The position numbers were made by a program, and so were the translations under genes. This document shows positions 1,262 through 26,931 of a DNA stretch of 32,153 nucleotides, in pieces (position 1 is the first letter of the stretch; each line of letters opens with the position of its first letter). Source of the stretch: Thermotogae bacterium (GTDB taxonomy: Bacteria; Thermotogota; Thermotogae; Petrotogales; Petrotogaceae). The stretch is from contig JAKJGQ010000010.1 in assembly GCA_022704305.1 (NCBI GenBank), forward strand, positions 1-32,153, in the 5' to 3' direction. The notes below the pieces were generated by a model. It had not been told where the DNA came from and searched no databases. It saw only the letters and a program-made list of their open reading frames with translations.

Positions 1262-3175
1262 ATGAGAAAAATTTCAAGCATAAAAAGGAAGTACATTCTC
1301 TACATATCTTTGATATGCGTGATAAGTCTTTTTATACTTTCCTGCATTAGCTACATTTTTTCTTACAGAATTGTTCTTTCAACCCTTAAGGAAAAATTAT
1401 CCGCTTACTCTTTAAGGTATTCACAAGAGATAGATTCATGGCTGACTGTTCAATCACAGAAACTTGAATGGATAAGTCATGACATCAGTATCAATGAAGA
1501 GTACTATTCAAACAGATCCAATGTTTATAAGCTACTGTCTGAAAAATACAGATCGTCTTTAGGCATAGTAAATGATTATTATATGAGCTATACTGATAAA
1601 ACATTAATTTCCGGTTCTGACTGGGTTCCTCCGTCAGATTACGACTGCACACAAAGAAATTGGTATACTCTTGCATCTCAGGGCGGAAAAACTGTTTTCA
1701 CCGAACCGTACGTTGATGCGGATGAAAGATCCGGTTTAAGAATGGTAATTACTATATCTACACCTGTTTACTCAGAGGACAGATTATCCGGAGTGTTGGC
1801 TGCAGATATTACTATAGATAGCCTAGTAAAGCTTGTAAACAGCATAAATCCGGCCAAGGGAGGTTATGCCTTCCTTGTTGACGGAAACAACGCTTTCATA
1901 ACTCATCCAGAAAAAGATTTTCTTCCAACCCGCGAAAAACACTCTTATATTGATAAGGTTTTTAACGGCGGCTATACAAAACTTTCAGAACAAATTGCAT
2001 CTAGAAGTTATAGTATTACCCAAATAAAGGATTTTGACGGTATTGACAAATATTTCATCCTTTCAGAAATTAAAAGTTCGGGGTGGTTTCTGTGTATCTC
2101 AATTCCCCAAACTGAAATTTCAAATAATCTTAACATACTTTTGATCGGATTTACTGTTTTTACTACCTTGTCGGCACTTATAAGCATGGTGATAATATAC
2201 TTTCTTATAAGCGGTATGATAAGGCCTGTGATAAGTCTTACCCAAGCAGTAAAAGAGTTTGGAGACAAAAAAATGCACGTAAGAAGCACCGTGTACTCTC
2301 AGGACGAGATTGGAGAGCTTTGCAACAGCTTCAATAAAATGGCAGATCTTATACAGGATTATAGTACAACTCTTGAAAACAAAGTTTTAGAGAGAACAAA
2401 GGAACTTAATGAAAAAAATCTTAAAATTCAGGAAAGCATAGAATATGCCAATATGATACAGATAGCCATACTTCCTTCTGATTCAGAGATGAAAGCTTTT
2501 CTGGGAGATTATTTTGTGATATGGCAGCCAAGAGACACTGTAGGCGGAGATTTTTATTGGACAAAAAATTTTGATGACGGGTTTCTTGTCATGGTAGGCG
2601 ACTGTACCGGACACGGAATACCGGGTGCCCTTATGACAATGGCTGTAAACGCTATAATCGATCATATTACACAGGATATATGCCATAATGATCCGGCACG
2701 GATTTTAACTGAAATGGACAGGCTTGTCAATCAGCTTTTACACAGGGACAGAAGCAACGATACTGTGAGTGACGGTCTTGACATAGGAATTGTTTTTATT
2801 TCGGAAAAAAAGGACATACTGTTTTGTGGAGCCCGGATATCGCTTTTTACTGCTGATAATGCTCAAATAAGGGAGATTAAAGCCTCAAATCATACTATAG
2901 GACATGAGGCTACGCAAAGAGAAAAAAAGTTTGACAATATCTCTGTAAAACACAGCAGTTCTATGGCTCTGTATCTGATGACCGATGGTATAAAGGATCA
3001 GATAGGCGGAGATAAAAAACTTCCTTTTGGTAAAACAAACGTAATAAAAATTCTTGAATCTGTATGGGATAAGCCTATGAGTGAACAGAAAAATCTTATA
3101 TATATGAAATACAAAGAGTACCGTAATACTGAAATAAGCAGGGACGATATTACAATGTTCGGATTACGTCTATAA
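1262..3175 (+). CDS. siaA: SiaA-like membrane PP2C phosphatase with Cache sensor
   Basis: A 637-residue membrane sensor phosphatase. A first transmembrane helix (about 10-36) and a second (about 291-317) flank an extracytoplasmic double-Cache-type domain with NWYTLAS at 133-139 and EPYVDADERSG at 148-158. A HAMP linker (about 318-370) and a coiled-coil stretch lead to a PP2C/SpoIIE-type domain (about 400-637) with GGDFYW, VGDCTGHGIPGAL, TDGIKDQIGG and a final DDITMF. These carry the expected metal-binding aspartates. In Pseudomonas aeruginosa SiaA has this architecture and dephosphorylates SiaC, which switches on the cyclase SiaD. The next three genes are homologues of SiaB, SiaC and SiaD in the same order, which makes this a confident context call. 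It reads an external small ligand that is unknown here. The ATG at 1262 has only a weak upstream ribosome site. Confidence 0.88.
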   Translation: MRKISSIKRKYILYISLICVISLFILSCISYIFSYRIVLSTLKEKLSAYSLRYSQEIDSWLTVQSQKLEWISHDISINEEYYSNRSNVYKLLSEKYRSSLGIVNDYYMSYTDKTLISGSDWVPPSDYDCTQRNWYTLASQGGKTVFTEPYVDADERSGLRMVITISTPVYSEDRLSGVLAADITIDSLVKLVNSINPAKGGYAFLVDGNNAFITHPEKDFLPTREKHSYIDKVFNGGYTKLSEQIASRSYSITQIKDFDGIDKYFILSEIKSSGWFLCISIPQTEISNNLNILLIGFTVFTTLSALISMVIIYFLISGMIRPVISLTQAVKEFGDKKMHVRSTVYSQDEIGELCNSFNKMADLIQDYSTTLENKVLERTKELNEKNLKIQESIEYANMIQIAILPSDSEMKAFLGDYFVIWQPRDTVGGDFYWTKNFDDGFLVMVGDCTGHGIPGALMTMAVNAIIDHITQDICHNDPARILTEMDRLVNQLLHRDRSNDTVSDGLDIGIVFISEKKDILFCGARISLFTADNAQIREIKASNHTIGHEATQREKKFDNISVKHSSSMALYLMTDGIKDQIGGDKKLPFGKTNVIKILESVWDKPMSEQKNLIYMKYKEYRNTEISRDDITMFGLRL

Positions 3176-3190
3176 AAGGAGGGAAAACTT

Positions 3191-3751
3191 TTGCTCAACC
3201 TATATGAGCTTTATAAAAATGCCAAGACCAAGAACATAATTTTTTATTACAGTGGACCTATTGCACATGCCAGTATAGAAGGAGTAGCCGCTACCCTGCG
3301 CAAGAACCTACAGTATGAAGGGACTGATGAAATAACTTCAAATGCAGTTTTTTCAGTTTTTATTGAGCAAGTGCAGAATATTCTGAATTATTCGGCCGAA
3401 AAATTCTCTGATATCAACAGTGATGACGAAGATCTGCGTGCAGGTGTCGTGGCAATAGGATATGAAGAAGGATTTTACTGTATCTACTGTGGAAACAAGG
3501 TATATAATCAAGACATTCCAAAGATAAAAGAAAATATTGACAGTGTTCGCAATCTCGACAAAGAACATCTTAAAGCACTTTATAAAGAGAGAAGAAGAAT
3601 GGAACCTCCACCATCAAGCAAAGGGGCAGGTCTTGGACTTATAGAGATGGCACGTAAAGCTGTAAAACCCATCGATTATACTTTTATTCCTATGGATGAA
3701 GAGTATTCATTTTTCACCATAAAAGTCGTAACAGGGAGGGAAAAGATTTGA
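3191..3751 (+). CDS. siaB: SiaB-like protein kinase (DUF6272)
   Basis: A 186-residue protein resembling SiaB, which in Pseudomonas phosphorylates SiaC. The fold looks like the histidine-kinase/anti-sigma ATPase fold: a central helix with IEQVQNILNYS resembles an N-box, and SSKGAGLGLIEMARKA near residue 145 resembles the glycine-rich ATP-lid segment. No transmembrane helix is seen. Translation starts at a TTG at 3191, preceded by AGGAGGG at good distance; no ATG fits. It lies 15 bases after the phosphatase gene and overlaps siaC by four bases, so translation is probably coupled. By analogy it opposes SiaA in setting the phosphorylation state of SiaC. The kinase assignment rests mostly on gene order plus the ATP-site motifs. 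Confidence 0.8.
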   Translation: MLNLYELYKNAKTKNIIFYYSGPIAHASIEGVAATLRKNLQYEGTDEITSNAVFSVFIEQVQNILNYSAEKFSDINSDDEDLRAGVVAIGYEEGFYCIYCGNKVYNQDIPKIKENIDSVRNLDKEHLKALYKERRRMEPPPSSKGAGLGLIEMARKAVKPIDYTFIPMDEEYSFFTIKVVTGREKI

Positions 3752-4146
3752 ACGACCTTATAATTGAAAAAACTCAGTCCACACCATATATAAATTTTTC
3801 TCATGAACACAAAAAACTTTTTATCAGCGGTGAATCTTTCCCTGAAAACGCAGCCAAATTTTATGCTCCCATACTCGAATGGATAAAGCAGATAATAAAT
3901 GACCCAAATACTGACAGTTTCACTGCCGACTTTGAGATTATATATTTCAACAGCAGTACTTCAAAAGTATTTATGACTATCTTCGATACTTTTGAAAATG
4001 CTGTGAAAAAAGGAATGCAAATTACTGTAAACTGGCGCTGTGATTCAGAAAATGAAACAGCAATAGAGTGTGGAGAGGAGTTTAAAGAAGATCTTTCTAC
4101 TCTACCCTTTAACATAGTTTTGGTGAAAGGAGTGGAAAATGGATAA
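3748..4146 (+). CDS. siaC: SiaC-like partner-switch protein (DUF1987)
   Basis: A 132-residue cytoplasmic protein of the DUF1987/SiaC type. Typical segments are TPYINFSHEHKKLFISGES at the N terminus, FEIIYFNSSTSKVF in the middle, and VNWRCDSENETAIECGEEF towards the end. In Pseudomonas unphosphorylated SiaC binds and activates the diguanylate cyclase SiaD, and phosphorylation on a threonine by SiaB blocks this. The hydroxyl-rich NSSTSK run (68-73) is the likely phosphosite region here; I cannot say which residue is used. The start is TTG at 3748, overlapping the siaB stop by four bases with GGGAGGG upstream, and the end overlaps siaD by eight bases. The tight coupling suggests fixed stoichiometry. 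Confidence 0.85.
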   Translation: MNDLIIEKTQSTPYINFSHEHKKLFISGESFPENAAKFYAPILEWIKQIINDPNTDSFTADFEIIYFNSSTSKVFMTIFDTFENAVKKGMQITVNWRCDSENETAIECGEEFKEDLSTLPFNIVLVKGVENG

Positions 4147-4849
4147 TATCTTTATCAAAGAAGATGAAGTTATCGAGAATGCAGAAAACGCTATTCGGAA
4201 AAATATTATGGGAAGCACTGAAGGAGAGGCTCTTTATAAAGATCTGCTATATGAATATAAAAAATTGTTGAAACAGACCAAAAGTCTTGTAAAAATGTCA
4301 GATATGATGCAGCTTCAGCTTCATGACCTTTCACGTGAGCTTGAAAGGATGTCAAACACAGATGGACTTACTGGAATATATAATAGACGTTTTTTTAACG
4401 AAATATTTCATAAAGAATGGTACAGCGCCTTTAGAGGAAAAATATCTATCGGAATTCTTATGATAGATATTGATAACTTTAAAAAGTACAACGATACCTA
4501 TGGACATCTGCAAGGCGACAGATGCTTGAAGCTTATTTCTGAAATTATACAAAAATCTGTAAAACGTCCGAGAGATATGCTGGCAAGATATGGAGGCGAA
4601 GAGTTTGTAGTACTGCTTGCAGAAACTGATATAAAAGGATGTCGTGCTGTTGCAGAAGAAATTATAAAAAGTATTGAAGCCAAGGATATTAAGCATGCGG
4701 GTTCTCCGTATTTTCCGCGTGTCACGGTATCTGTAGGAATAGCTGTGACTGTCCCTGATGATCAGGACTCGTGTGAAAAACTTCTTAATATGGCCGATGA
4801 AGCATTATACCGTGCAAAGGCTGCTGGAAGAAACTGCTGTATGGAATAG
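4139..4849 (+). CDS. siaD: SiaD-like diguanylate cyclase
   Basis: A 236-residue soluble GGDEF protein. The first ~70 residues are helical and look like a coiled coil (LLYEYKKLLKQTKSLVKMSD onward), matching the N-terminal region through which Pseudomonas SiaD is activated by SiaC. The catalytic domain follows with NTDGLTGIYNRRFF, DIDNFKKYNDTYGHLQGD and ARYGGEEF, so the active site is intact. RPRD lies five residues before GGEEF and fits the RxxD inhibitory site, so product feedback is likely. The domain closes with ADEALYRAKAAGRN. It makes c-di-GMP from two GTP. It is the last gene of the operon and overlaps siaC by eight bases. No clear terminator hairpin follows it. Confidence 0.92.
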   Translation: MDNIFIKEDEVIENAENAIRKNIMGSTEGEALYKDLLYEYKKLLKQTKSLVKMSDMMQLQLHDLSRELERMSNTDGLTGIYNRRFFNEIFHKEWYSAFRGKISIGILMIDIDNFKKYNDTYGHLQGDRCLKLISEIIQKSVKRPRDMLARYGGEEFVVLLAETDIKGCRAVAEEIIKSIEAKDIKHAGSPYFPRVTVSVGIAVTVPDDQDSCEKLLNMADEALYRAKAAGRNCCME

Positions 4850-7372: not shown

Positions 7373-8328
7373 TAGAACTCCTCCTTAAGCCCCTTAAGGC
7401 AGAGGGTGGTAAAGACTATTATCAATACGGTTATAAAAAAAGTGATAACTCCGTATGCTGCTGTAAGACCATATTGTTGAAGCTCTCGCATTATATTAAA
7501 AGTATATGAAACCAAAATATCAGTAGATCCAAAATAATCTCCGAGGGAATTTCTAGGTCCGCCACGTGTAAGCAAAAATATAAGGTTGAAATTATTGAAT
7601 TGGAATGCAAACTGCGTTATAATTAAGGGTGAAAGGGTCTTGTTAAGCAAAGGAAGGGTGATTTTTCGAAATTTATATACTTTTCCTGCCCCATCAATTT
7701 CAGCTGCTTCATACAAATCAGTCGGAATACTCTGAAGCGCCGCATACGTAATAGTCATAAAATAAGGAAATGAAATCCATGCATTAACAATAATTACCCA
7801 AAATCTTGACCAAAAGACCGAATTAAACCATGAAACTGCTTCGATTCCGAACATACCAAGAAATTGATTAAGTACCCCTTCCGTTCCAAGCATGCCATGC
7901 CACATCTGAATTGCTATTACCCCCGGAAGCGCCCATGGAATAATAAGTAGTCCACGATAAATATTTCTTTCCGGAAGATTTGGATTATTGAGAAATATAG
8001 CAATAAACATACCTATAAAGTAATTTAATAAAGTACTGAGTACCATCCAGGCTATTGTCCACAGCAGTACAGGAAAAAACGGACTATTTTGAGTAAGATT
8101 GAAAATTTTCTTGTAATTTTCAACACCAATGAAATCATATTCAAAGTAATGATTAAGACCGTAGTTTGTAAAAGAAATAAAAATATTGTATAGCGAAGGA
8201 ATAACTGTTGATACTGTAATTGCAAATACAGTTGGAAAAAGAAATAAAGAAGCTGCTTTAAGCTGTTTTTTCGGATATATTGCTTTTTTTTGTAGGCTAA
8301 TTTTCTTTGAAAAGGCTCTGTAAGTCAT
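7372..8328 (-). CDS. malF: MalF-type sugar ABC permease
   Basis: A 318-residue permease of the MalF family. After a short basic N terminus it has a first helix (about 28-50), a further helix bundle, and the EAA loop DLYEAAEIDGAGKVYKFRKITLPLL (around residues 208-232). The family-typical QFAFQFNNFNLIFLLTRGGP segment follows. It lacks the large periplasmic loop of the enterobacterial MalF, as many Firmicutes and Thermotogota members do. A strong AAGGAGGT site precedes the ATG at 8328. A hairpin separates it from the binding-protein gene, which may lower its expression relative to that gene. Confidence 0.88.
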   Translation of the reverse strand: MTYRAFSKKISLQKKAIYPKKQLKAASLFLFPTVFAITVSTVIPSLYNIFISFTNYGLNHYFEYDFIGVENYKKIFNLTQNSPFFPVLLWTIAWMVLSTLLNYFIGMFIAIFLNNPNLPERNIYRGLLIIPWALPGVIAIQMWHGMLGTEGVLNQFLGMFGIEAVSWFNSVFWSRFWVIIVNAWISFPYFMTITYAALQSIPTDLYEAAEIDGAGKVYKFRKITLPLLNKTLSPLIITQFAFQFNNFNLIFLLTRGGPRNSLGDYFGSTDILVSYTFNIMRELQQYGLTAAYGVITFFITVLIIVFTTLCLKGLKEEF

Positions 8329-8362
8329 TAGGGCGACCTCCTTACTGACTTATGGAAAGGGG

Positions 8363-11744: not shown

Positions 11745-14700
11745 ATGATGATTAAAAATGATGAACTACAACTTAAAAATATAGGTATTATATTTAATTC
11801 AAATGGGTTAACAGCAGTTTTTTTAAAAAAAGAGTATATCCCGGCTCTTTTACATCTTGAGCTTTTCAGTCACTGTATAATTTTTTCAGACAGCCAACAA
11901 CAAGATAAATACAATTTATTTAAAAGCAGTATCAGCTCAGAGGTATGCAGAATAGTAAAGATTGATGGAAAAAGAGGGATTATCTATCTTGACCGGATAG
12001 CAGCAGCAGATCAGTCACCGGTATGGGATGTAAAACCTTACTTTCCCTGTGAAGATCGCGTCCAATCTCCAACAGATCCTTTTTCAAGCTTTGGAACCTT
12101 CAGAGCGGAAAACAACTGCGAGCCTCAAGAAAAGGACATCAGTGAAATTAACAATATTGAAAGAACTGTCAGAAAAAAGGGAACAATTATAAATTTTCAA
12201 GGAGAGTATTTTATTCAATTTGATAATAAATGCTTTTTTGAGTATGAGAAAATAAATCAGTTTTCGCATATAAAAATATTGTGGTGGTTTGATAGATTTG
12301 ACAAGCCGGAGTACAGAAAAGTTATACAGTGCAACCCTCCATATGAGAATGCACCAAAAACCGGTATTTTTGCAAGTCGTTCGCCCGTTAGACCAAACCC
12401 TATCGCTATGACCACAGCAAAAGTGTTAAGAACAGATCCGGAAAAAAATAGAGTATATATAAACTATATCGATTGTTTTGAGAAAAGTACAGTTGTTGAA
12501 GTTCTTCCTTACATTGCAGTATACGACAGAATTGAAGCTTTCACTCTACCGCAGTGGCTGGAACACTGGCCCCAGTGGTTGGATGAAGGAGCTACCAGCA
12601 GCATCCCTGATAAAAGCGAAATGGAACCTTCATTAAAAGACCGGATCAAAAAATACATAAAGGCTGATTCTGTCTGTTACTCACAGGAAAAAAGATACGA
12701 TAGCTTTTCCGACGGGGTTTTCCGCGATGAAGGCTACATAACTATTAAAGGTGCGAAACAAAATAACCTTAAAAACATAACGGTAAAGATACCAAAAAAT
12801 AAAATTACACTTATAACCGGAGTGAGCGGAAGCGGAAAATCAAGTCTCGCATTTGACACTCTTTATGCAGAAAGTCAGCGTAGATTTATGGATAGTATTT
12901 CAACCTCCGGTAAAATGGCGTTCGAACAGTTTGAAAAACCGGATGTTGAGCAAATAACTAATCTCCCTCCGGCTATAGCCATAGAACAGAAAACTCTTGG
13001 AAGAAATCCAAGATCAACTGTCGGAACCATAACTGACATATACGATTATCTTAAACTTCTTTATGCACGAGTTGGAACAAGACACTGCCCTCAGTGTGGA
13101 AAACCCTTTACCCAAATGACTGAGAACCAGATAATAAATACGCTACTTTCTATCCAGCCTCATAATCATATTACTATAAGTCCATTTGGTCATAATGATG
13201 ATCAAAAACATTTTATCTTTTCCGAGCAAAAAGACCGGCTTTTTGAAGACGATCTGGCTAAATGCGTATCTCTGATGCTGAAAAAAGGAAAGGGAGCATT
13301 AAGGGTATTAATAAATGAAGAAGATTTTCTCTTTCAGACCACCTCAATATGTTATCACTGTGAAAAAATATTCTTTGAGCTTACTCCGGCAGACTTCAGT
13401 TTTAACAATCCGCAAAGTATGTGTCCTGTATGCAAAGGATTGGGAGTAATTCTGCAGGTCGACCCGGAACTGATAGTAAGTGATCCCTCAAAATCATTGT
13501 TGGATGGTGCTTCAAATTGGTGGGGCAATCTCCGCAAACACAGAAGCAAACCAAATGCCAACTGGATGAAAGGCGAGGTTCTCGCTCTTGCCGAACAGAT
13601 GAATGTTGATTTGGAACTTCCATGGAAAGAGCTTCCACAGGAATTTAAAACTCAAGCACTTTATGGGTCTAAGGGAAAAGAGGTACGGTTTGTTTATGAA
13701 AATTCAAACGGTAGGAAAGGCGAAATCATAAGACCTGTTGAAGGAGCCTGCAACATTATAAATAGATTATTCAGGGAAAACAACGGCGAAACCGCACAAA
13801 GACTTGTTTCCGCCTTTATGAATGAAAAGGAATGTACCACATGTCATGGAGAGAGGCTTTCTCCACAAGGACGGATGGTGGTTCTTGCCGGAAAAAGATT
13901 TCCACAGGCAACATCAATGAAAATTAGCGAGCTGCTAAAGTGGCTCCTCGAACTTCAAATAAAGCTTGATCCATCGGAACTAGAAATAGCACAGACACTT
14001 TTGAATGAAATGACTAAAAAACTTAAGAGCCTTAGCAATGTGGGCGTTTCGTACCTTTCACTTGATAGAGCCGTGCCAACCCTATCGCCTGGCGAAGCAC
14101 AGAGAATCCGTCTTGCATCTCAGCTTGGCAACGGTCTTTCCAATCTTCTTTATATACTGGATGAGCCTTCAATGGGACTTCATGCTAAAGACCATAAGTA
14201 CCTCATACAGTCAATAAAAGAGTTGCGCGATAATGGCAATACTGTTGTCATGGTAGAACATAACACCCAAATGATCCTTAATGCTGATTATATAATAGAT
14301 ATGGGTCCGGGGGCCGGTGAACACGGAGGATACGTGATAGCTCAGGGAAATCTTTCGCAGTTAGAGGAAAACTGCACTTCTCTTACAGCAAAAGCACTTA
14401 AGGAAATAGAAAATGAACCCCGATCATGTTCAAATCGTAGAATACCTTATGGATGGCTTAAAATAATAGGTGCAACCCATAACAACCTTAAAAACATTGA
14501 TGTTGAAATTCCTTTGGGACTTATTACATGTGTAACGGGTGTAAGCGGATCAGGAAAAAGCAGTCTTATATCAAAAACACTTTTCCCAATGCTGAACAAC
14601 CATTTCAATGCTTCACAGGACACGGCGGGATCTTGTCAAAATATACTCGGAATTGAAAACATTGACAATGTCCTAAACATTTCGCAACAGCCAATAGGCA

Positions 14701-15449
14701 GAACTCCGCGTTCCAATCCTGCAACATATACCGGTCTGCTTGATGAGATACGTGAACTTTTCGCTGCTATACCTGCTGCAAAAAAATTAGGCTATAGATC
14801 AAATAAATTCAGCTTCAACAGTAAAGAGGGACAGTGCCCGGAATGCTCAGGCGAAGGCCGTAAATGTATTGAGATGAACTTTATGCCTGACGTATGGATT
14901 CAATGTCCTCAATGCAAAGGTAAGAGATTTAATCAACAGGTGCTTGAAATCTTTTACAATGGCAAAAACATTGCTGATATTCTGGAAATGACTGTAGAAG
15001 AAGCATTAACTTTCTTTAGTACCCAGAAAAAAATCTCCAGAATTCTTACAACCATGTATAATGTAGGATTGGGATATATAAAACTTGGACAAAGTGCTTT
15101 AACACTTTCCGGTGGCGAGGCCCAGAGAATAAAACTATCAAAAGAGCTTAGCCGTGAAACATCCAGCCGTTGTCTGTATATCTTAGATGAACCTACGACA
15201 GGCCTTCACTATGAAGATATTAAAAAACTTTTAAAAATACTTTCAGATATATCGGATGCCGGCAATACAGTACTAGTGATAGAACACAACCCTCAGGTAA
15301 TAAAAAATGCCGATTGGATTATAGATTTAGGACCGGAAGGCGGAGACAACGGAGGATTCCTCATTTTTCAGGGAACAGTTTCAAAGATTTTGGAATGTGA
15401 AAAAAGTTTTACTGGACAAGTACTCAAAACCATTATAAAAAACAGATAG
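11745..15449 (+). CDS. Fusion of two TrmO/TsaA-like domains with a UvrA-like ATPase
   Basis: A 1234-residue fusion. Residues ~8-120 form a TrmO/TsaA-like beta-barrel without its key motif (NIGIIFNSNG, LLHLELFSHCIIF, GIIYLDRIAAADQSPVWDVKPYFPCEDRV). Residues ~145-290 form a second, better preserved TrmO-like domain with FSHIKILWWFDRFD and GIFASRSPVRPNPIAM, the signature of tRNA t6A37 N6-methyltransferase TrmO. From ~330 the protein is UvrA-like: Walker A GVSGSGKSSLAFDT, zinc site CYHC...CPVC, LSPGEAQRIRLASQ, LYILDEPSMGLH, a second Walker A GVSGSGKSSL, zinc site CPEC...CPQC, LSGGEAQRIKLS and LYILDEPTTGLH. About 85 residues separate HCPQC from CYHC, against about 130 in E. coli UvrA, so the UvrB-binding part is shortened, as in UvrA2-type proteins linked to DNA-drug tolerance. 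AGGAGGTG precedes the ATG; ATG 11748 is an equal alternative. Confidence 0.88.
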   Translation: MMIKNDELQLKNIGIIFNSNGLTAVFLKKEYIPALLHLELFSHCIIFSDSQQQDKYNLFKSSISSEVCRIVKIDGKRGIIYLDRIAAADQSPVWDVKPYFPCEDRVQSPTDPFSSFGTFRAENNCEPQEKDISEINNIERTVRKKGTIINFQGEYFIQFDNKCFFEYEKINQFSHIKILWWFDRFDKPEYRKVIQCNPPYENAPKTGIFASRSPVRPNPIAMTTAKVLRTDPEKNRVYINYIDCFEKSTVVEVLPYIAVYDRIEAFTLPQWLEHWPQWLDEGATSSIPDKSEMEPSLKDRIKKYIKADSVCYSQEKRYDSFSDGVFRDEGYITIKGAKQNNLKNITVKIPKNKITLITGVSGSGKSSLAFDTLYAESQRRFMDSISTSGKMAFEQFEKPDVEQITNLPPAIAIEQKTLGRNPRSTVGTITDIYDYLKLLYARVGTRHCPQCGKPFTQMTENQIINTLLSIQPHNHITISPFGHNDDQKHFIFSEQKDRLFEDDLAKCVSLMLKKGKGALRVLINEEDFLFQTTSICYHCEKIFFELTPADFSFNNPQSMCPVCKGLGVILQVDPELIVSDPSKSLLDGASNWWGNLRKHRSKPNANWMKGEVLALAEQMNVDLELPWKELPQEFKTQALYGSKGKEVRFVYENSNGRKGEIIRPVEGACNIINRLFRENNGETAQRLVSAFMNEKECTTCHGERLSPQGRMVVLAGKRFPQATSMKISELLKWLLELQIKLDPSELEIAQTLLNEMTKKLKSLSNVGVSYLSLDRAVPTLSPGEAQRIRLASQLGNGLSNLLYILDEPSMGLHAKDHKYLIQSIKELRDNGNTVVMVEHNTQMILNADYIIDMGPGAGEHGGYVIAQGNLSQLEENCTSLTAKALKEIENEPRSCSNRRIPYGWLKIIGATHNNLKNIDVEIPLGLITCVTGVSGSGKSSLISKTLFPMLNNHFNASQDTAGSCQNILGIENIDNVLNISQQPIGRTPRSNPATYTGLLDEIRELFAAIPAAKKLGYRSNKFSFNSKEGQCPECSGEGRKCIEMNFMPDVWIQCPQCKGKRFNQQVLEIFYNGKNIADILEMTVEEALTFFSTQKKISRILTTMYNVGLGYIKLGQSALTLSGGEAQRIKLSKELSRETSSRCLYILDEPTTGLHYEDIKKLLKILSDISDAGNTVLVIEHNPQVIKNADWIIDLGPEGGDNGGFLIFQGTVSKILECEKSFTGQVLKTIIKNR

Positions 15450-18388: not shown

Positions 18389-18452
18389 AAGTATATTATC
18401 AGACTAAAGTAACTTTAAAATGAAGCAAAAGTTTCAAATCAGCTTATGTTCA

Positions 18453-18481
18453 AAGACAAATTTTTCTTATTGTAGTATAAT
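18453..18481 (+). promoter_or_regulatory. Promoter of the phosphatase-like gene
   Basis: AAGACA (18453-18458) and TATAAT (18476-18481) are spaced by 17 bases and lie about 35 bases before the start codon at 18516. The zinc operator is about 65 bases further upstream, so the two divergent units need not share control. Confidence 0.55.
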
Positions 18482-18515
18482 ATCCTTACATATCATAAAT
18501 TCGGGAGGGATTATT

Positions 18516-19598
18516 TTGAAAAAAAACGTTTTGAAATCCATAACTGTATTTATTTTTATTACTCTTTTTTCAACAGTAATTTTCGCTGCTGGAACTCAAG
18601 GTTTTTCCGGAAATGTAGCCGAGATAGACAAGTACGGGAATGTACGACTTGACGTGACGGAAGAAGCTGTAAAGCTTTCTGGAGTGGAGGTAGGAGACAT
18701 TCTTGAAGTCAAGTTTAACGATAAAACTCTTATCCTTCCTTTTGCTACGGCATACGGAGATGTCGATAGATCATCCGCTCTTTTACGATTAAATAAAGGA
18801 TTTGTTCAGATGGCTATTAACTACGGTAACTTTGCAACATTTTTCTCAGTTGCACTAAACAATACCGTAACCGTTTCTGTTCTTGAAAAGGGAACTTATA
18901 AGGCTCAAATTGAATTAAGAAAACTTGTAAAATCGGAGGAACGCAAGGACTATCCATCAGATCAGGCTTTTGCGAATTTCAGAGAAATTTCTTTAGGATG
19001 GATAAAACCCGGTATTCTTTTCAGGACATCACATCCATCGGTAGCAGATTCAAGATCGTCCTACGTTGCTGCTTTTGTAGAGGAATATCAGATACAAACC
19101 ATAATCAATCTTGCTGACACACAGGCTGAACTGCAGGAAAACCTTAAAAATTCAAAGTACTATGAAGATCTCTATAATAAAGGGTCTGTAATAGCTCTTG
19201 GAATGGGAGTAGACCTTCTTTCAAAAGACTTTGCGGCAAAATTAAAAACTGCCTTTGAGTTTATGATAGAACACAGAGGTCCTTACGCCATACATTGTCT
19301 TGAAGGCAAAGACAGAGCCGGAATAGTATCAGCAATACTTGAAGGACTCATGGGGGCAACCGTTGATGAAATCGTTAACGATTATATGATAACCTATGAA
19401 AACTACTACTCCATGGTAAAAGGAACCGAAAGATACGACCTCATAGCAAAGATCATGACTGACCAGCTGAAAGAGATGAACAGCAACAAACCGGTAACTG
19501 ATCTTAATTTGAGATCCGTAATGTTTCTGTACCTAAAGAACACTGTAGGACTTTCAGATGAACAGATAGCACTTCTCAGAACAAGAATTTCAGAGTAA
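18516..19598 (+). CDS. Exported tyrosine-phosphatase-like protein with N-terminal beta domain
   Basis: A 360-residue protein with a signal peptide (about 1-25, ending TVIFAAG) and no lipobox. Residues ~28-140 form a beta-rich domain that resembles the C-terminal domain of SAM-hydroxide adenosyltransferases (GNVAEIDKYGNVRLDV, then GDILEVKF and LPFATAYGDV); this likeness is tentative. From ~150 the protein resembles the Y_phosphatase3/PTP family: LGWIKPGILFRTSHP, then IINLADTQAEL, and the P-loop HCLEGKDRAG with nucleophile Cys261 and Arg267. It should be a phosphatase acting outside the cytoplasm, on phosphotyrosine, phosphoinositide-like or other phosphate esters. TTG at 18516 is chosen because GGGAGG precedes it and the signal peptide begins there; an ATG at 18420 would bury it. 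Confidence 0.78.
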   Translation: MKKNVLKSITVFIFITLFSTVIFAAGTQGFSGNVAEIDKYGNVRLDVTEEAVKLSGVEVGDILEVKFNDKTLILPFATAYGDVDRSSALLRLNKGFVQMAINYGNFATFFSVALNNTVTVSVLEKGTYKAQIELRKLVKSEERKDYPSDQAFANFREISLGWIKPGILFRTSHPSVADSRSSYVAAFVEEYQIQTIINLADTQAELQENLKNSKYYEDLYNKGSVIALGMGVDLLSKDFAAKLKTAFEFMIEHRGPYAIHCLEGKDRAGIVSAILEGLMGATVDEIVNDYMITYENYYSMVKGTERYDLIAKIMTDQLKEMNSNKPVTDLNLRSVMFLYLKNTVGLSDEQIALLRTRISE

Positions 19599-19642: not shown

Positions 19643-20098
19643 ATTAAAAATCACATTATTATGTTAAATCCTTCAATATATATGTGATAATTATTTTTTT
19701 CGTCAGGAAAAGCTAATTTTAAGATATTTTCGTAAATAAATGCATTTAAAATCAAAAAAGTCTTTTTTAAATTGTGCGTTTTATAACAAATCAGTAAATA
19801 ATTAAAGGGTTAAGAAACAAAACTATGAATTCCCAGCGTAAAACTTAACCATAAAATAATTTTTCAGTGTATTTTTTTCAGAAATAAGTGGTAGAATTGT
19901 GTTGAAAATAAAAAAGTGAAATAAAACACTTTTATACTTTTACTATGAAGTGAAAATAATAACTTCATTTTTATAAAACTTATATTTTCTAGCTTCTATA
20001 AGTACCTGAAAAAAAATTACAGTATAAGTGGCAAGGAAAAATTGAAAAAAAGTATAATCCAAGTGATAAAAAGAACTTAAAAACGGGAGATGATTCTA
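19643..20098 (+). promoter_or_regulatory. Long AT-rich leader of the 4-hydroxybutyrate operon
   Basis: About 450 bases without a gene before a highly structured catabolic operon. A TATAAT at 20053-20058, 41 bases before the start codon, is the best -10 candidate, but no good -35 fits (TGGCAA at 18-base spacing is weak), so an activator may be needed. Two short hairpins lie upstream (listed separately). The rest is very AT-rich with no ORF, tRNA or recognised RNA. Confidence 0.45.
19912..19968. repeat. Two adjacent inverted repeats upstream of the dehydratase gene
   Basis: AAAAGTG (19912-19918) faces CACTTTT (19927-19933) across 8 bases, and ATGAAGT (19945-19951) faces ACTTCAT (19962-19968) across 10 bases. 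Neither is followed by a T run suited to termination. They may be protein-binding sites or RNA hairpins; the sequence does not match a regulator site I recognise. Confidence 0.45.
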
Positions 20099-21565
20099 AT
20101 GGCATTGATGACACCTGAGCAGTATGTTGAGAGTTTGAGAAAGCTTAATCTGAAGGTTTACCTTTTCGGAGAGTTGATAGAAAATCCTGTAGATCATCCG
20201 ATAATAAGACCTTCGCTAAACTCTGTGGCAAAAACATACGAGCTGGCCCAGATGGATGAGTACAAAGAGCTTATGACGGCAAAGTCCAATCTTACCGGTG
20301 AAACTGTCAACAGATTCTGTCATCTTCACCAGAGCACTGAAGATCTCAAGAATAAAGTAAAAATGCAAAGACTTTTGGGTCAGAAAACAGCTGCCTGTTT
20401 TCAGAGATGCGTTGGAATGGATGCTTTTAATGCACTTTACTCAACAACATATGAAACTGATGAAAAATACGGTACTACTTATCATAAAAATTTTATTGAG
20501 TATATGAAGTATGTACAGACAAACGATCTGACCGTCGATGGAGCAATGACAGACCCTAAAGGCGACAGGGGACTTGCACCTTCAGAACAGCAGGATCCGG
20601 ATCTTTACCTGCGAATTGTTGAAAGAAGGAAGGACGGTATTATTGTCAGAGGAGCAAAAGCTCATCAGACAGGTGCGGTTAATTCTCATGAACACCTTAT
20701 AATGCCTACATGTTCTATGAGAGAAGAGGATAAAGACTACGCTGTGGCTTTTTCTGTTCCAAGCGATGCACCAGGTGTATTTATGATTTATGGAAGACAA
20801 TCTTGCGACACCAGAAAGCTTGAAAATTCTTCTATTGACGTTGGAAACAGCACTTATGGCGGTCATGAGGCATTGGTAGTATTTGACGATGTTTTTGTAC
20901 CTAATGACAGGATTTTCTTATGCGGTGAGTATGATTTTGCCGGAATGCTTGTGGAAAGATTCGCTGGTTACCATAGACAGTCCTACGGAGGATGTAAGGT
21001 TGGAGTTGGAGACGTTCTGATAGGAGCAGCGGCACTCGCAGCAGATTATAACGGTGTCCCAAAGGCAAGTCATATAAAAGATAAACTGATCGAGATGATT
21101 CATCTTAATGAAACACTTTACAGTTGTGGTATCGCCTGTTCAACAGAAGGGAAGAAAACTAAAGCCGGAAATTACCAGATAGATCTTCTGCTGGCCAATA
21201 TCTGTAAGCAGAACGTTACCAGACTGCCGTATGAGATTGCCAGACTTGCAGAGGACATAGCAGGCGGTCTTATGGTTACAATGCCTTCTGAAAAAGATCT
21301 TAACAGTCCTGAAATAGGAAAATATGTGGAAAAGTACCTTAAAGGCAGCTCGAAAGTATCTACAAAAAACAGAATGCGAGTACTTCGCCTTATCGAAAAT
21401 ATGACACTTGGAACAGCAGCAGTAGGTTACAGGACAGAATCAATGCACGGTGCAGGTTCACCTCAGGCACAGAGGATCATGATATCAAGACAGGCAGATC
21501 TAGAGCAGAAGAAGAATCTTGCGAAAGTAATAGCAAAAGTAGACGAATCCGAAAATAAAAAATGA
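20099..21565 (+). CDS. abfD: 4-Hydroxybutyryl-CoA dehydratase
   Basis: A 488-residue [4Fe-4S]/FAD enzyme converting 4-hydroxybutyryl-CoA to crotonyl-CoA, with expected vinylacetyl-CoA isomerase activity. The sequence follows the Clostridium aminobutyricum enzyme closely along its whole length. The unusual cluster ligands are present: Cys100 and Cys104 (AACFQRCVGMDAF), His292 and Cys299 (GYHRQSYGGC). Other conserved stretches are MTDPKGDRGLAPS, AKAHQTGAVNSHEH, FMIYGRQSCDTRK and SMHGAGSPQAQRIM. The enzyme is cytoplasmic, works as a tetramer in known cases and is oxygen-sensitive. I use the ATG at 20099 because GGGAG lies at a good distance; the ATG at 20090 is almost on top of it. It opens the operon and is followed after 10 bases by a NifU-like gene. 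Confidence 0.96.
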   Translation: MALMTPEQYVESLRKLNLKVYLFGELIENPVDHPIIRPSLNSVAKTYELAQMDEYKELMTAKSNLTGETVNRFCHLHQSTEDLKNKVKMQRLLGQKTAACFQRCVGMDAFNALYSTTYETDEKYGTTYHKNFIEYMKYVQTNDLTVDGAMTDPKGDRGLAPSEQQDPDLYLRIVERRKDGIIVRGAKAHQTGAVNSHEHLIMPTCSMREEDKDYAVAFSVPSDAPGVFMIYGRQSCDTRKLENSSIDVGNSTYGGHEALVVFDDVFVPNDRIFLCGEYDFAGMLVERFAGYHRQSYGGCKVGVGDVLIGAAALAADYNGVPKASHIKDKLIEMIHLNETLYSCGIACSTEGKKTKAGNYQIDLLLANICKQNVTRLPYEIARLAEDIAGGLMVTMPSEKDLNSPEIGKYVEKYLKGSSKVSTKNRMRVLRLIENMTLGTAAVGYRTESMHGAGSPQAQRIMISRQADLEQKKNLAKVIAKVDESENKK

Positions 21566-21575
21566 AGTGACTTTT

Positions 21576-21863
21576 ATGAGCAGCCCAACTTTCGATTTAG
21601 TAAAAGAAATAATCGACATTAAGATAAAACCTCTAGTACAAGAGCATGGCGGAGGAATTGAACTCAAAAGTGTTCAGGGCGGTACCGTTTATATCAAGCT
21701 ACTGGGAGCTTGTAGGAACTGCCCTTCCGCCCAGCTTACCGTTGAAAACCACATCAAAAGAATACTGATACAGCACTTTCCCAATATAGAAAAAGTTGCT
21801 GTAACGGATAACATAAGCAGCGATCTTATGGATATGGCTAGGAAAATTCTATCTCATGCATAA
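21576..21863 (+). CDS. NifU-type iron-sulfur scaffold domain protein
   Basis: A 95-residue protein consisting only of the NifU C-terminal (Nfu) domain. It has VKEIIDIKIKPLVQEHGGGIELKSV, then GACRNCPSAQLTVENHI with the cluster-binding CxxC (Cys46 and Cys49), then the helical tail. Nfu domains hold or pass on [4Fe-4S] clusters. The gene sits between the dehydratase and the CoA-transferase, with only 10 and 27 bases on either side, so it is in the operon. The dehydratase is the only Fe-S enzyme encoded there, so delivery or repair of its cluster is a sensible inference. ATG 21576 follows AAGTGA; GTG 21567 in the same frame is possible. Confidence 0.85.
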   Translation: MSSPTFDLVKEIIDIKIKPLVQEHGGGIELKSVQGGTVYIKLLGACRNCPSAQLTVENHIKRILIQHFPNIEKVAVTDNISSDLMDMARKILSHA

Positions 21864-21890
21864 TACTTTTTGATAAGGAGCGGCTAAAGT

Positions 21891-23183
21891 ATGGATCTTA
21901 AACAGTTATACAAGGAAAAAACAGTATCGGCTGAGGAAGCTGCTTTTAAAATACCTTCCGGTTCAAGAGTTGTTCTTGCGCATGCAGCAGGAGTTCCAAC
22001 TGCAGTAATCAACAGTATGACAGCCAACAAAAGCAGATACAAGGATGTCGAAATAGTCCATCTTTTATGTCTTAATGATGCTCCCTATACGAGCAGCGAC
22101 TGTGAAGGACATTTCAGACACAATGCACTTTTCGTTGGTGGAAATACCAGAAATGCTGTTTCAAAAAACAAAGCAGATTATACGCCATGCTTTTTTTATG
22201 AGATTCCAAAACTTTTTTCAAGCGGCAAAATGCCTGTTGATGTTGCCATAATAAACGTAAGCAGACCGGACAAGTATGGTTATTGCAGTTATGGGGTGTC
22301 TTGCGATTATACTAAACCAGCTGCTGAAAACGCAAGAATAGTAATTGCTGAAGTAAACGATAAAATGCCTACAGTAATGGGAGATAACTTTATCCATATA
22401 AGCAATATAGATTATATAGTAGAAACCTCAAAAGAGCCTGCTGTTCTGGAACCGGCAGAGATAGGACAGACAGAAAAAGCAATCGGTGAGAACTGCGCTG
22501 CTCTTATAGAAGATGGTTCAACATTACAGTTAGGAATAGGAGCCATTCCTGATGCAGTACTGCTTTTTCTGAAAAACAAAAGGGATCTAGGCATACACAG
22601 CGAAATGGTTTCCGACGGAGTATTAGAACTGGTTGAGGCAGGCGTTATAACAAACAAAAATAAAACTATTCATAAAGGTAAGATGATTGCAACTTTTCTC
22701 ATGGGTAGCAAGAGACTTTACGATTTTGTCGATAAAAATCCGATGATTGAACTTTATCCTGTTGATTATGTAAATAATCCATTGGTGATAATGCAAAACA
22801 GAAAGATGGTCTCAATAAACTCGTGTCTTCAGGTAGACCTTATGGGACAGATCGCATCTGAGAGCATAGGACTCAAACAGTTCAGCGGAGTAGGCGGACA
22901 GGTGGATTATGTAAGAGGAGCAAGCATGTCAGAAGATGGAAAGTCAATAATTGCCATGCCGTCTACTGCATGTGACGGAAAGGTATCAAGAATTGTACCT
23001 TTTCTTTCACAGGGAAGTGCCGTTACAACTTCAAGAAACGATGTGCATTATGTTGTAACTGAATACGGAGTTGCTGATCTATGGGGAAAGACTCTCAGAA
23101 AACGTGCTGAAGCCTTAATAGAGATAGCTCACCCATATTTCAGACAAAGTCTGACAGAAGAATACGAAAAAAGATTTTCATAA
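21891..23183 (+). CDS. abfT: 4-Hydroxybutyrate CoA-transferase
   Basis: A 430-residue family I CoA-transferase that moves CoA from acetyl-CoA or butyryl-CoA to 4-hydroxybutyrate. The catalytic glutamate is Glu238 in LGIHSEMVSDG, the position known for the Clostridium aminobutyricum enzyme. Further landmarks are LQLGIGAIPDAVL, FSGVGGQVDYVRGA and VTEYGVADLWGKTLRKRAEALI. It belongs to the 4-hydroxybutyrate/acetate CoA-transferase (Cat2) subgroup, and its neighbours on both sides act on the same metabolite. GATAAGGAGC lies upstream of the ATG. Confidence 0.94.
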   Translation: MDLKQLYKEKTVSAEEAAFKIPSGSRVVLAHAAGVPTAVINSMTANKSRYKDVEIVHLLCLNDAPYTSSDCEGHFRHNALFVGGNTRNAVSKNKADYTPCFFYEIPKLFSSGKMPVDVAIINVSRPDKYGYCSYGVSCDYTKPAAENARIVIAEVNDKMPTVMGDNFIHISNIDYIVETSKEPAVLEPAEIGQTEKAIGENCAALIEDGSTLQLGIGAIPDAVLLFLKNKRDLGIHSEMVSDGVLELVEAGVITNKNKTIHKGKMIATFLMGSKRLYDFVDKNPMIELYPVDYVNNPLVIMQNRKMVSINSCLQVDLMGQIASESIGLKQFSGVGGQVDYVRGASMSEDGKSIIAMPSTACDGKVSRIVPFLSQGSAVTTSRNDVHYVVTEYGVADLWGKTLRKRAEALIEIAHPYFRQSLTEEYEKRFS

Positions 23184-23197
23184 AAAGGGATGATAGC

Positions 23198-24313
23198 ATG
23201 GAGCTTTTCAAGCTAGGCAGCAAGATCTTTAAATACGACACATTCAATGACTTTGTGCATGAATTTAAAATAGAAAGTACTGATCTCATAATAACCAATC
23301 AGTTCATATATGATCCGATTATAAAGGAGTCAGACGCAAAGTGTAATGTAATATTTCAAGAAAGATACGGAAATGGTGAACCTTCAGATGAAATGATGAA
23401 CGGTATTCTGAACGAAGCAAAAAAATATGATTTTAAAAGAATAATTGCTATCGGCGGAGGTACTGTTATAGATATCGCTAAGATCCTTGTTCTCAAAGAT
23501 ATTGTTGACGTAAAGGATGCTTTTGAAAGAAAAGTTCCTCTCCTAAAGGGAAAAACTCTTATAGCAGTTCCTACTACCTGCGGTACCGGAACCGAGGTTA
23601 CAAATATTTCTATCGCCGAAATAAAATCAAAAAAAACTAAGATGGGGCTTGCAGTTCCTGAATTGTTTCCAGATGCGGCAGTTCTTATCCCTGAGTTTTT
23701 GAAAAATCTTCCTTATAAATTTTATATGTATAGCTCTATTGATGCTCTTATTCATGCGACCGAATCATATCTTTCACCAAAAGCAAATACATATACCAAG
23801 CTTTATGCTGTGAAAGCAATAGAAACCATACTTGATATCTATATTAATATGAAAAAGTTTGGCGAAGAGTACAGATTTGAAAGGCTTGAAGATATTCTGG
23901 TTGCAAGTAACTGCGCAGGAATAGCTTTTTCCAATACTGGAGTAGGAGCCGTGCATGCACTTTCTTATCCTATAGGGGGAAATTATCATGTCCCTCACGG
24001 ACTTTCTAACTATCTTTTCTTTACAGAGATATTTAAGCTTTATGTAAAAAAGAATCCTTCAGGAACGATAAAGGAACTGAACAGAATACTTTCTGGTATT
24101 CTAGATTGTGATACTTTTGACGTATACGATAAACTTGAAATGCTTTTGGGAAAACTTTTGCAGAAAGAAAGGCTTTCTTCTTACGGAATGAAGGAACGCG
24201 AGGTTGAAGAGTTTGCAAAGAGTGTTATAGCCAATCAGCAAAGGCTTCTTGCTAACAACTATGTTCCTCTTTCCGATAAAGAGATAGAAAACATATACAG
24301 AATATTATTATAA
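23198..24313 (+). CDS. 4hbD: 4-Hydroxybutyrate dehydrogenase (iron-type alcohol dehydrogenase)
   Basis: A 371-residue group III metal-dependent alcohol dehydrogenase that interconverts succinate semialdehyde and 4-hydroxybutyrate with NAD(H). The nucleotide motif is IAIGGGTVIDIAK (83-95), PTTCGTGTEVTN follows, and the metal ligands are Asp182, His186, His253 and His267 (IDALIHATESY and AVHALSYPIGGNYHVPHG), with the 4- and 14-residue spacings of the family. The sequence is close to the Clostridium kluyveri 4hbD product from end to end. It lies 14 bases after the CoA-transferase gene. Confidence 0.94.
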   Translation: MELFKLGSKIFKYDTFNDFVHEFKIESTDLIITNQFIYDPIIKESDAKCNVIFQERYGNGEPSDEMMNGILNEAKKYDFKRIIAIGGGTVIDIAKILVLKDIVDVKDAFERKVPLLKGKTLIAVPTTCGTGTEVTNISIAEIKSKKTKMGLAVPELFPDAAVLIPEFLKNLPYKFYMYSSIDALIHATESYLSPKANTYTKLYAVKAIETILDIYINMKKFGEEYRFERLEDILVASNCAGIAFSNTGVGAVHALSYPIGGNYHVPHGLSNYLFFTEIFKLYVKKNPSGTIKELNRILSGILDCDTFDVYDKLEMLLGKLLQKERLSSYGMKEREVEEFAKSVIANQQRLLANNYVPLSDKEIENIYRILL

Positions 24314-24328
24314 CGGAGGAAAATGAAT

Positions 24329-25684
24329 ATGTCTGAAATAGATGAACTGATTCAAAAGTCTAGAAAAGCACAAAAAGAGTTTGAAAGGTTCAGTCAGGAA
24401 CAGGTTGACCTAGTGGTGAAGGAAATTGCAAAGACTGTTTACGATAATGCCGAGTTACTTGCAAAAATGGCTGTTGAAGAAACCAGAATGGGAGTTTATG
24501 AGCACAAGGTTTCTAAAAACAAAGGAAAGTCAAAAACCATATGGAATGATCTCAAAAATAAAAAATCTGTTGATATAATAAAAATTGATGAAGAAAAAAA
24601 TATTGTTGAAATAGCTAAACCCATGGGAGTTGTAGGTTCCGTGACTCCTACCACGAACCCTACTGTTACGTGCATGTGTAACGCAATGTTTGCGCTTAAG
24701 GGGAGAAACTCCATAATAATCGCACCTCATCCAAGGGCAAAAATGACTTCTTTGAAAACAGTTGAACTTATTAATGAAGCACTCAAAAAATATAATTCTC
24801 CGGAAAATCTTATTCAGGTAATAAAGGATCCGAGTATTCAAAAAACTGAAGAGCTTATGAAAGTTGTTGATGTTGTCGTCGCTACAGGAGGAATGGGCGT
24901 TGTCAAGGCTGCATATTCCAGCGGTAAACCAGCATATGGGGTCGGAGCAGGAAATGTCCAGGTTATACTGGACAACGACATTGACTATGAGACAGCAGCA
25001 GAAAAAGTCATATCAGGAAGAGCTTTTGATAACGGCATAATCTGTTCCGGCGAGCAGAGTATAATAGTTGATGAGCATGACTATGAAAAAGTAGTGAAAG
25101 CTTTTGAAAGCAAAGGTGCCTTTTTTGTAAGAGATCAAAAAACCAAGGAACATGTCAGAAGTATGCTTTTTATTAATGGACAGATAAATAAAGATGTTGT
25201 GGGACAGTCTGTAAAAAAGATTGCTGAAATAGCAGGGCTGAATATTCCGGAAAATACCAAGGTAATCATAGTAGAAGCTGATGGTATAGGAAAAGAAGAC
25301 GTCCTGTGTAAAGAAAAGATGTGCCCGGTTATGGTCAGCTTCAAGTATAAAACCTTTGATCAGGCACTAAAAATTGCAAAGACCAATCTTGAACTTGAAG
25401 GTTCGGGACATACTGCGGCCATTCATTCCAACAACAATTCAAATATCGAAAAAGCAGGGATATGTCTTCCAATTTCACGGCTTGTTGTAAATGCACCTTC
25501 TTCAACTACAGCAGGAGGTAGTTTAATGAACGGTTTTGCACCAACCACAACTCTTGGATGCGGTTCATGGGGAAACAACTCCATATCTGAGAACTTTACC
25601 TATAAGCATTTAATAAACATTTCACGTATAGGCTTTGTAAATACCAAAATACGTATTCCCACTGACGAAGAAATCTGGGCCTGA
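24329..25684 (+). CDS. sucD: Succinate-semialdehyde dehydrogenase, CoA-acylating
   Basis: A 451-residue aldehyde dehydrogenase that reduces succinyl-CoA to succinate semialdehyde. The catalytic cysteine lies in DNGIICSGEQS (Cys239), with KAAYSSGKPAYGVGAGNVQV before it and the C-terminal TTTLGCGSWGNNSISENFTY typical of CoA-acylating members such as Clostridium kluyveri SucD, which it matches along its length. I use ATG 24329 because GGAGG is eight to nine bases upstream; ATG 24323 is too close to it. It completes the route from succinyl-CoA to crotonyl-CoA and is followed by a terminator. Confidence 0.94.
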   Translation: MSEIDELIQKSRKAQKEFERFSQEQVDLVVKEIAKTVYDNAELLAKMAVEETRMGVYEHKVSKNKGKSKTIWNDLKNKKSVDIIKIDEEKNIVEIAKPMGVVGSVTPTTNPTVTCMCNAMFALKGRNSIIIAPHPRAKMTSLKTVELINEALKKYNSPENLIQVIKDPSIQKTEELMKVVDVVVATGGMGVVKAAYSSGKPAYGVGAGNVQVILDNDIDYETAAEKVISGRAFDNGIICSGEQSIIVDEHDYEKVVKAFESKGAFFVRDQKTKEHVRSMLFINGQINKDVVGQSVKKIAEIAGLNIPENTKVIIVEADGIGKEDVLCKEKMCPVMVSFKYKTFDQALKIAKTNLELEGSGHTAAIHSNNNSNIEKAGICLPISRLVVNAPSSTTAGGSLMNGFAPTTTLGCGSWGNNSISENFTYKHLINISRIGFVNTKIRIPTDEEIWA

Positions 25685-26738: not shown

Positions 26739-26827
26739 TTTAAGATCATGGAAATTTTTTTTAACAATAAAATGTTATCATTGTGATTGATTTATAAACT
26801 AAAAATTTAATACTTAACTTATTTAAA

Positions 26828-26929
26828 GAGAAAAAAACACAGTCCGGTTGGTAGTCCGGACACAGTAAAAACTGTTAGTAGCCTTCCGTATAACGGATGT
26901 CCATTCTCCAATTTTTTGTTTAGGAGGAT
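26828..26929 (+). ncRNA. Probable yjdF (azaaromatic) riboswitch
   Basis: The 100 bases before yjdF can fold into a multibranch element. GAGAA (26828-26832) pairs with TTCTC (26904-26908) and encloses three hairpins: GTCCGG/CCGGAC (26842-26861), ACAGT/ACTGT (26862-26875) and CCGT/ACGG (26886-26896). The 3' strand ATTCTCC (26903-26909) can instead pair with GGAGGAT (26923-26929), which is the ribosome site of yjdF, giving seven pairs including one G-U. The two folds exclude each other, so stabilising the closing stem would free the ribosome site: a translational ON switch. yjdF genes are known to be preceded by an azaaromatic-sensing RNA that raises translation. Match to its covariance model was not tested. 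Confidence 0.65.
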
Positions 26930-26931
26930 GT

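Follow-up and report, generated by a model that had tools for sequence, protein, structure and literature searches.

Positions 1262-4849 of contig JAKJGQ010000010.1, from a Thermotogae bacterium of the family Petrotogaceae (phylum Thermotogota; assembly GCA_022704305.1), are, to judge from their sequence, a complete SiaABCD-type switch, in a form that diverges from the known system of Pseudomonas aeruginosa. The whole stretch analysed here (the window; 32,153 nucleotides) is the contig start in a 2.04 Mb genome (G000) that is 80% complete. By analogy with P. aeruginosa, we consider it very probable that an extracellular signal, most likely an L-amino acid, governs the activity of a diguanylate cyclase through this partner switch. 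The gene content and order, the catalytic and switch residues, a SiaC-docking helix on the cyclase and an amino-acid-binding motif in the sensor can all be read directly from the letters. The Sia switch has so far been worked out in one organism; the present locus, together with its relatives, allows predictions of the class of ligand, of a docking stoichiometry that is simpler, and of a rule by which SiaC targets can be told from sequence. The known system is extended here by a predicted input of amino acids, by a docking site that occurs once, and by evidence for a SiaC dock that is portable across enzyme classes.

The four sia genes and their switch residues

A first-pass annotation, made by a model from the sequence alone, had recognized the order phosphatase, kinase, DUF1987 partner and diguanylate cyclase known as siaABCD, and profile searches matched each of the four proteins to its counterpart, with additional matches to solved structures for SiaA, SiaB and SiaC. 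The two smaller proteins, of 186 and 132 residues, on which that identification had been made to depend, matched DUF6272 (PF19788; E 3e-44) and the former DUF1987 family (PF09345; E 4e-42, 143 bits against a cut-off of 24.5), respectively. SiaA and SiaD have 637 and 236 residues, all four genes lie on the plus strand, and their open reading frames (ORFs) and active sites are intact (Table 1). The genes are consecutive, as had been described, and siaB/siaC and siaC/siaD overlap by 4 and 8 nucleotides, but siaA and siaB do not overlap, being separated by a gap of 15. Both siaB and siaC start with TTG, each behind a strong Shine-Dalgarno sequence. A scan for promoters and terminators stayed at chance level, and no transcription unit is claimed from it. 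The earlier remark that such a switch is little described holds for its study outside Pseudomonas, which is rare, yet the system is common in genomes, with at least 522 SiaC relatives confirmed in one genome scan.

SiaA matched the NCBIfam model NF038263 (E 8e-86), and its PP2C part matched the solved SiaA-PP2C structure (PDB 6k4e; E 4e-55), relative to which the metal residues D430, D447, D507, D575, D579 and D628/D629 are kept (P. aeruginosa numbering in PMC7647112). SiaB matched NF038262 (194.5 bits against a cut-off of 85) and PDB 6kko_A (E 6.5e-22); its E59 corresponds to the predicted catalytic E61 of PA0171, and a GAGLGL box stands at residues 145-150. SiaC, which also matched PDB 6kko/6k4f (E 3e-20), keeps the switch loop FNSSTSK, in which Ser69, where helix 2 begins, is the residue open to phosphorylation; P. 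aeruginosa SiaC has Thr68 at this place. Serine holds this position in 73 of 91 aligned SiaC sequences and threonine in 18, in a sample biased towards the window, and the P. aeruginosa threonine is thus the less common form in the sampled family. SiaC residues Q10, Y66, N68, S69, S70, M76 and D80 match contacts of the solved SiaC-SiaD complex (PMC8457831), and the interface residues are largely conserved on both the SiaC and the SiaD side.

The GGEEF motif and the RxxD inhibitory site (I-site) noticed in the cyclase at first pass are present, at residues 152-156 and R143-x-x-D146. Metal-binding D110 is kept, and so are N118 and D127, which by PleD numbering we take to be the guanine-recognising positions; because they are kept, the product of SiaD should be cyclic di-GMP (c-di-GMP). 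A Hypr-type enzyme making cyclic GMP-AMP (cGAMP) was considered and is rejected in view of the kept guanine-recognising aspartate.

The window thus shares with P. aeruginosa the A-B-C-D order, the PP2C, kinase, SiaC and GGDEF families, and the I-site. Other systems in which a STAS-like protein controls a diguanylate cyclase via a partner switch are HsbA/HsbD of P. aeruginosa and Bgr of Sinorhizobium meliloti, whose switch protein is a STAS domain and not a member of PF09345 (PMC8457831).

A SiaC-docking helix shared among enzyme classes

In the P. aeruginosa complex whose structure is solved, Thr68 of SiaC sits between the stalk helices of SiaD and touches S82 and Q86, with D83 nearby, and a second site, S50/Q54, lies 32 residues upstream of S82/Q86 (PMC8457831). 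The core of the proximal site, S82 D83 xx Q86, is present in the window SiaD as S54 D55 xx Q58. No S/D/Q fit was found at the upstream positions of the window SiaD, which therefore has one docking site where P. aeruginosa has two; SiaD proteins with two sites at the 32-residue spacing occur in Marinomonas and others (compared loci L079, L105 and L118).

A first docking profile was built by aligning the helix from 20 SiaC-adjacent proteins and used to search 5940 ORFs of the compared loci; all significant matches fell in SiaC-linked genes, and the helix was present in 73 of 80 SiaC-anchored loci. A second, held-out profile was trained on diguanylate cyclases only, with the window and all Thermotogota excluded. 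It recovered the window SiaD (E 1.5e-10; one copy) and also found the helix in HATPase kinases (E 4e-10 to 6e-4), an HD-GYP protein (3e-9), GGDEF-HD-GYP proteins (7e-6 and 6e-4) and class III cyclases (3e-8 to 2e-6); for representative partners, the domain classes were checked with Pfam. Weaker cases were a hybrid kinase in L040 (E 0.009, marginal) and one Marinitoga cyclase (0.03, weak), no significant match was obtained for the L072 HD-GYP protein, and the best reversed decoy reached E 0.35. Three plasmid loci outside the training set provided a further test. A sensor kinase and a cyclase beside siaC on an Azospirillum plasmid both bear the helix (E 9e-9 and 7e-11), as does the ORF adjoining siaC on a Tistrella plasmid (3e-9), a GGDEF cyclase by eye; the helix was not found at a Bernardetia plasmid locus with no obvious partner gene at siaC. 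A PDB search with the SiaD stalk alone returned chance coiled-coil matches only. Within the window's own genome, the other GGDEF loci gave zero matches to the held-out profile and SiaD was the sole match of a whole-genome search, so that SiaD is the only detectable SiaC target in the assembled 80%.

Taken together, these results suggest that SiaC is probably a general adaptor. It would recognize a helix of about 38 residues that is transferable between proteins and built around the core [IVL]-x-[KR]-[IVM]-S-D-x-x-Q, and would plug into histidine kinases and class III nucleotidyl cyclases as well as diguanylate cyclases and HD-GYP phosphodiesterases, one SiaA-SiaB-SiaC module thereby serving different outputs in different bacteria. 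Previously, it had merely been proposed that DUF1987 proteins modulate neighbouring proteins (PMC8457831), and no description of a shared docking helix was found in the literature searched, whose coverage did not extend to subscription journals. Such a rule makes many 'DUF1987' loci testable pairs, and through one helix partner switching would be tied to two-component systems and to signalling by c-di-GMP and cyclic nucleotides.

Helix-bearing class III nucleotidyl cyclases stand beside siaC at L049:7381-8604, L059:7467-8495 and L063:7694-8683, which suggests a cyclic mononucleotide under partner-switch control. HD-GYP proteins with the helix are found at L046:8027-9001, L051:9271-10890 and L067:9277-10899, and the breakdown of c-di-GMP may likewise be SiaC-controlled.

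Predicted input, mechanism and competing explanations

In alignment with the chemoreceptors PctA and PctB, the Cache domain of SiaA carries Y127, R132, W134, Y135, Y150 and D182 at the places of PctA Y121, R126, W128, Y129, Y144 and D173, that is, at six of six positions of the amino-acid-binding dCache_1AA motif (PMC10104139, PMC11245519). An AlphaFold model of SiaA was of moderate quality (mean predicted local distance difference test score, pLDDT, 71); its first structural matches were the PP2C structure 6k4e and two integrative models of the chemoreceptor McpB, followed by the amino-acid chemoreceptor domains of Mlp24, PctA, PctB and CtaA and, at a lower rank, an Aeromonas diguanylate cyclase whose dCache holds proline. 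Among Clostridia, the SiaA of L044 also shows the motif, as do the Marinitoga SiaA sequences examined, and it was found in none of the other SiaA homologues examined, including that of L042, a contrast that is indicative only, given imperfect regular expressions; the looser expression missed four Marinitoga SiaA, which were assigned by eye from sequence. The Cache ligand had been called unknown at first pass, and that is not wholly so, since an amino acid is predicted from the six residues of the motif. The input of the switch is, then, most likely an extracellular L-amino acid, which may raise or lower phosphatase activity.

The mechanism that we envisage follows P. aeruginosa, from which we infer by analogy both the biochemical steps and the direction of the switch, in which unphosphorylated SiaC activates. 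SiaB would phosphorylate SiaC at Ser69, whereby SiaC is kept off SiaD. Once the SiaA Cache is signalling, the PP2C domain in the cytoplasm would strip the phosphate from SiaC, and unphosphorylated SiaC would then clamp the N-terminal helix of SiaD (residues 36-73) and align two GGDEF domains, turning on c-di-GMP synthesis subject to I-site feedback. Because each SiaD has one docking site, the expected complex is two SiaD with two SiaC, as against 2:4 in P. aeruginosa.

Several observations weigh against this picture. The Cache motif has a three-residue insertion between Y150 and D182 relative to PctA, and the SiaD of the Clostridia homologue L044 is without an RxxD I-site, unlike that of the window. 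As to readers of c-di-GMP, the assembled 80% of the genome yielded no PilZ or MshEN domain with models that both detect Thermotoga maritima, and no c-di-GMP-I riboswitch in a search without a positive control. Finally, although the Sia models were the top or near-top NCBIfam matches of the window proteins, the SiaB subfamily model was the only one above its cut-off; the four P. aeruginosa equivalog models scored below theirs (NF038263, 289 of 700 bits; NF038264, 115.7 of 225; NF038265, 110.6 of 150; NF038266, 172.6 of 290), for which reason we regard the window proteins as a divergent variant.

Among the competing explanations, the same switch could respond to a Cache ligand other than an amino acid (an amine, a purine or another small molecule) or to a physical trigger such as the state of the membrane, which has been proposed for SiaA of P. 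aeruginosa. We regard this as rather unlikely, although the amine and purine dCache_1 subfamilies are related to the amino-acid type (PMC10104139, PMC11245519) and P. aeruginosa SiaA has been reported to respond to temperature via its membrane part (PMC12834913). An amine is disfavoured by the carboxylate-binding arginine (R132, PctA R126), a residue that amine sensors do not conserve, and a purine by D182 (PctA D173), which corresponds to glycine in the purine sensor McpH; furthermore, the nearest solved ligand complexes hold amino acids. That SiaC acts here on targets beyond SiaD, for instance a kinase, with c-di-GMP as one output, is less probable still. Such arrangements exist, as in Marinitoga, where the genes after siaC encode a HATPase kinase with the dock and a response regulator, and on the Azospirillum plasmid, with its dock-bearing kinase and cyclase beside one SiaC, but the whole-genome dock search gave SiaD alone, though with 20% of the genome missing. 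It is very improbable that the operon has decayed or that the contig was mis-binned: the nearest homologues are from Clostridia and the contig begins shortly upstream, but every frame and every active site is intact, the region recurs in the sister genome at 99% DNA identity and the rest of the contig matches Petrotogaceae.

Distribution, origin and genomic surroundings

Within Thermotogota, siaC occurs in 10 of 103 genomes and the docking helix, at E <1e-4, in eight, all eight of them with SiaC. The helix thus tracks SiaC (8/10 vs 0/93; Fisher P ~2e-10), with fewer independent cases than these counts imply because the genomes are related. Weak helix matches (E 0.004-0.006) appeared in three more genomes, two without SiaC that look like chance and one Marinitoga with a frameshift-split siaC. 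In the Marinitoga locus L041, siaC is split by a frameshift between 8081-8356 and the adjacent frame, and the docking partner also looks broken. The only SiaC genome without any helix match is G018; its locus L033 (G018:C98) holds a PAS-PP2C, SiaB and SiaC followed by an ABC transporter and may be a different Sia-like arrangement or a foreign contig.

The sister genome G054, the only other of the genus, has the HD-GYP gene, the isochorismatase gene and the first half of siaA in the same order, with 2193 of 2212 bases identical to the window, before its contig stops inside siaA. From this near-identity we take mis-binning to be unlikely and the operon to be common to the genus; parts of the window and the rest of the contig also match Petrotogaceae genomes at the DNA level. 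The family itself is placed by another of its genomes, in which a plasmid shows 100% identity to NC_016748.1 of Marinitoga piezophila KA3. In a tree of PP2C, SiaB and SiaC, the window grouped with two Clostridia loci (support 1.00), with the Marinitoga loci on a branch of their own. The nearest relatives are the siaABCD loci L042 (Soudan_22 metagenome-assembled genome, MAG), L044 (Eubacteriales STD2_249 MAG) and L043 (Desulforamulus aquiferis). Identity to L044 is 52% for SiaA, 63% for SiaB, 59% for SiaC and 48% for SiaD, and across L042 and L044 it is 59-63% for SiaB and for SiaC and 48-51% for SiaD; to Marinitoga L034 it is 29-42%. The Clostridia loci share the single dock and the FNSSTSK loop, and L044 also the amino-acid motif; they differ in that L042 is without the motif, L043 SiaD has ADxxE for SDxxQ, and L044 has no RxxD site. 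Because the window proteins group with Clostridia and away from Marinitoga of the same family, horizontal gain from, or exchange with, Clostridia would be the simplest reading.

Marinitoga shares with the window SiaABC, the amino-acid-type Cache and dock-bearing partners, the main partner there being a dock-bearing HATPase kinase with a response regulator, and some loci have an extra cyclase between A and B. At L034:5249-9008, L036:5459-8658 and L038:7423-10629, after SiaB-SiaC come a HATPase kinase, which bears the dock and a CheA/Hpt-like HTYKG motif, and a response regulator, apparently a serine/threonine partner switch feeding a phosphorelay.

Table 1. Features of the window discussed in the text, with the match or alignment that identifies each.
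Feature	Position	Strand	Evidence or domains
siaA, membrane PP2C phosphatase	1262..3175	+	dCache_1 ~43-279, HAMP 315-365, PP2C ~370-636
Amino-acid-binding motif of SiaA Cache	1640..1807	+	alignment to PctA/PctB
siaB, HATPase-type protein kinase	3191..3751	+	PF19788/DUF6272, NF038262, PDB 6kko_A
siaC, STAS-like phosphoprotein	3748..4146	+	PF09345 (formerly DUF1987), PDB 6kko/6k4f
SiaC Ser69, site of phospho-Thr68 in P. aeruginosa SiaC	3952..3954	+	alignment
siaD, docking stalk and GGDEF diguanylate cyclase	4139..4849	+	GGDEF E 5e-50
SiaC-docking helix of SiaD, residues 36-73	4244..4357	+	held-out profile E 1.5e-10; one copy
3' part of PAS-GGDEF-HD-GYP protein, cut by contig end	27..731	+	PF13487 E 5e-37; HDIGK / HHERWDGKGYP
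Isochorismatase-like hydrolase, between HD-GYP gene and siaA	739..1230	+	PF00857 E 1.5e-24

Upstream of siaA and on the same strand lie the truncated HD-GYP gene, whose protein the sister contig L136 shows as PAS-GGDEF-HD, and, 7 nucleotides further on, the isochorismatase-like gene, which is 31 nucleotides from siaA. The HD-GYP phosphodiesterase, with its signature intact, is possibly the enzyme opposing SiaD, and, if the genes are co-transcribed, as the spacing might suggest, the locus would hold both a maker and a breaker of c-di-GMP. A role for this protein as a second SiaC target is unsupported, with no dock in its 531 visible residues, the N-terminus being missing. The genome contains about 20 other GGDEF matches.

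Elsewhere in the window, positions 11745-15449 encode a 1234-residue UvrA, extended at its N-terminus by about 300 residues. The extension contains a domain of the TrmO/TsaA tRNA methyltransferase type (residues 166-261), which makes the protein an unusual fusion. An HpaB-type (4-hydroxybutyryl-CoA dehydratase-like) enzyme, a coenzyme A (CoA) transferase and an aldehyde dehydrogenase stand in one run at 20090-25684, which looks like a fermentative four-carbon pathway. The gene at 18420-19598 combines a tyrosine-phosphatase-like domain with a region resembling the C-terminal domain of S-adenosylmethionine (SAM) hydroxide adenosyltransferase, and at 26821-27348 an azaaromatic (yjdF) riboswitch (77 bits) lies directly 5' of a yjdF/DUF2992 gene.

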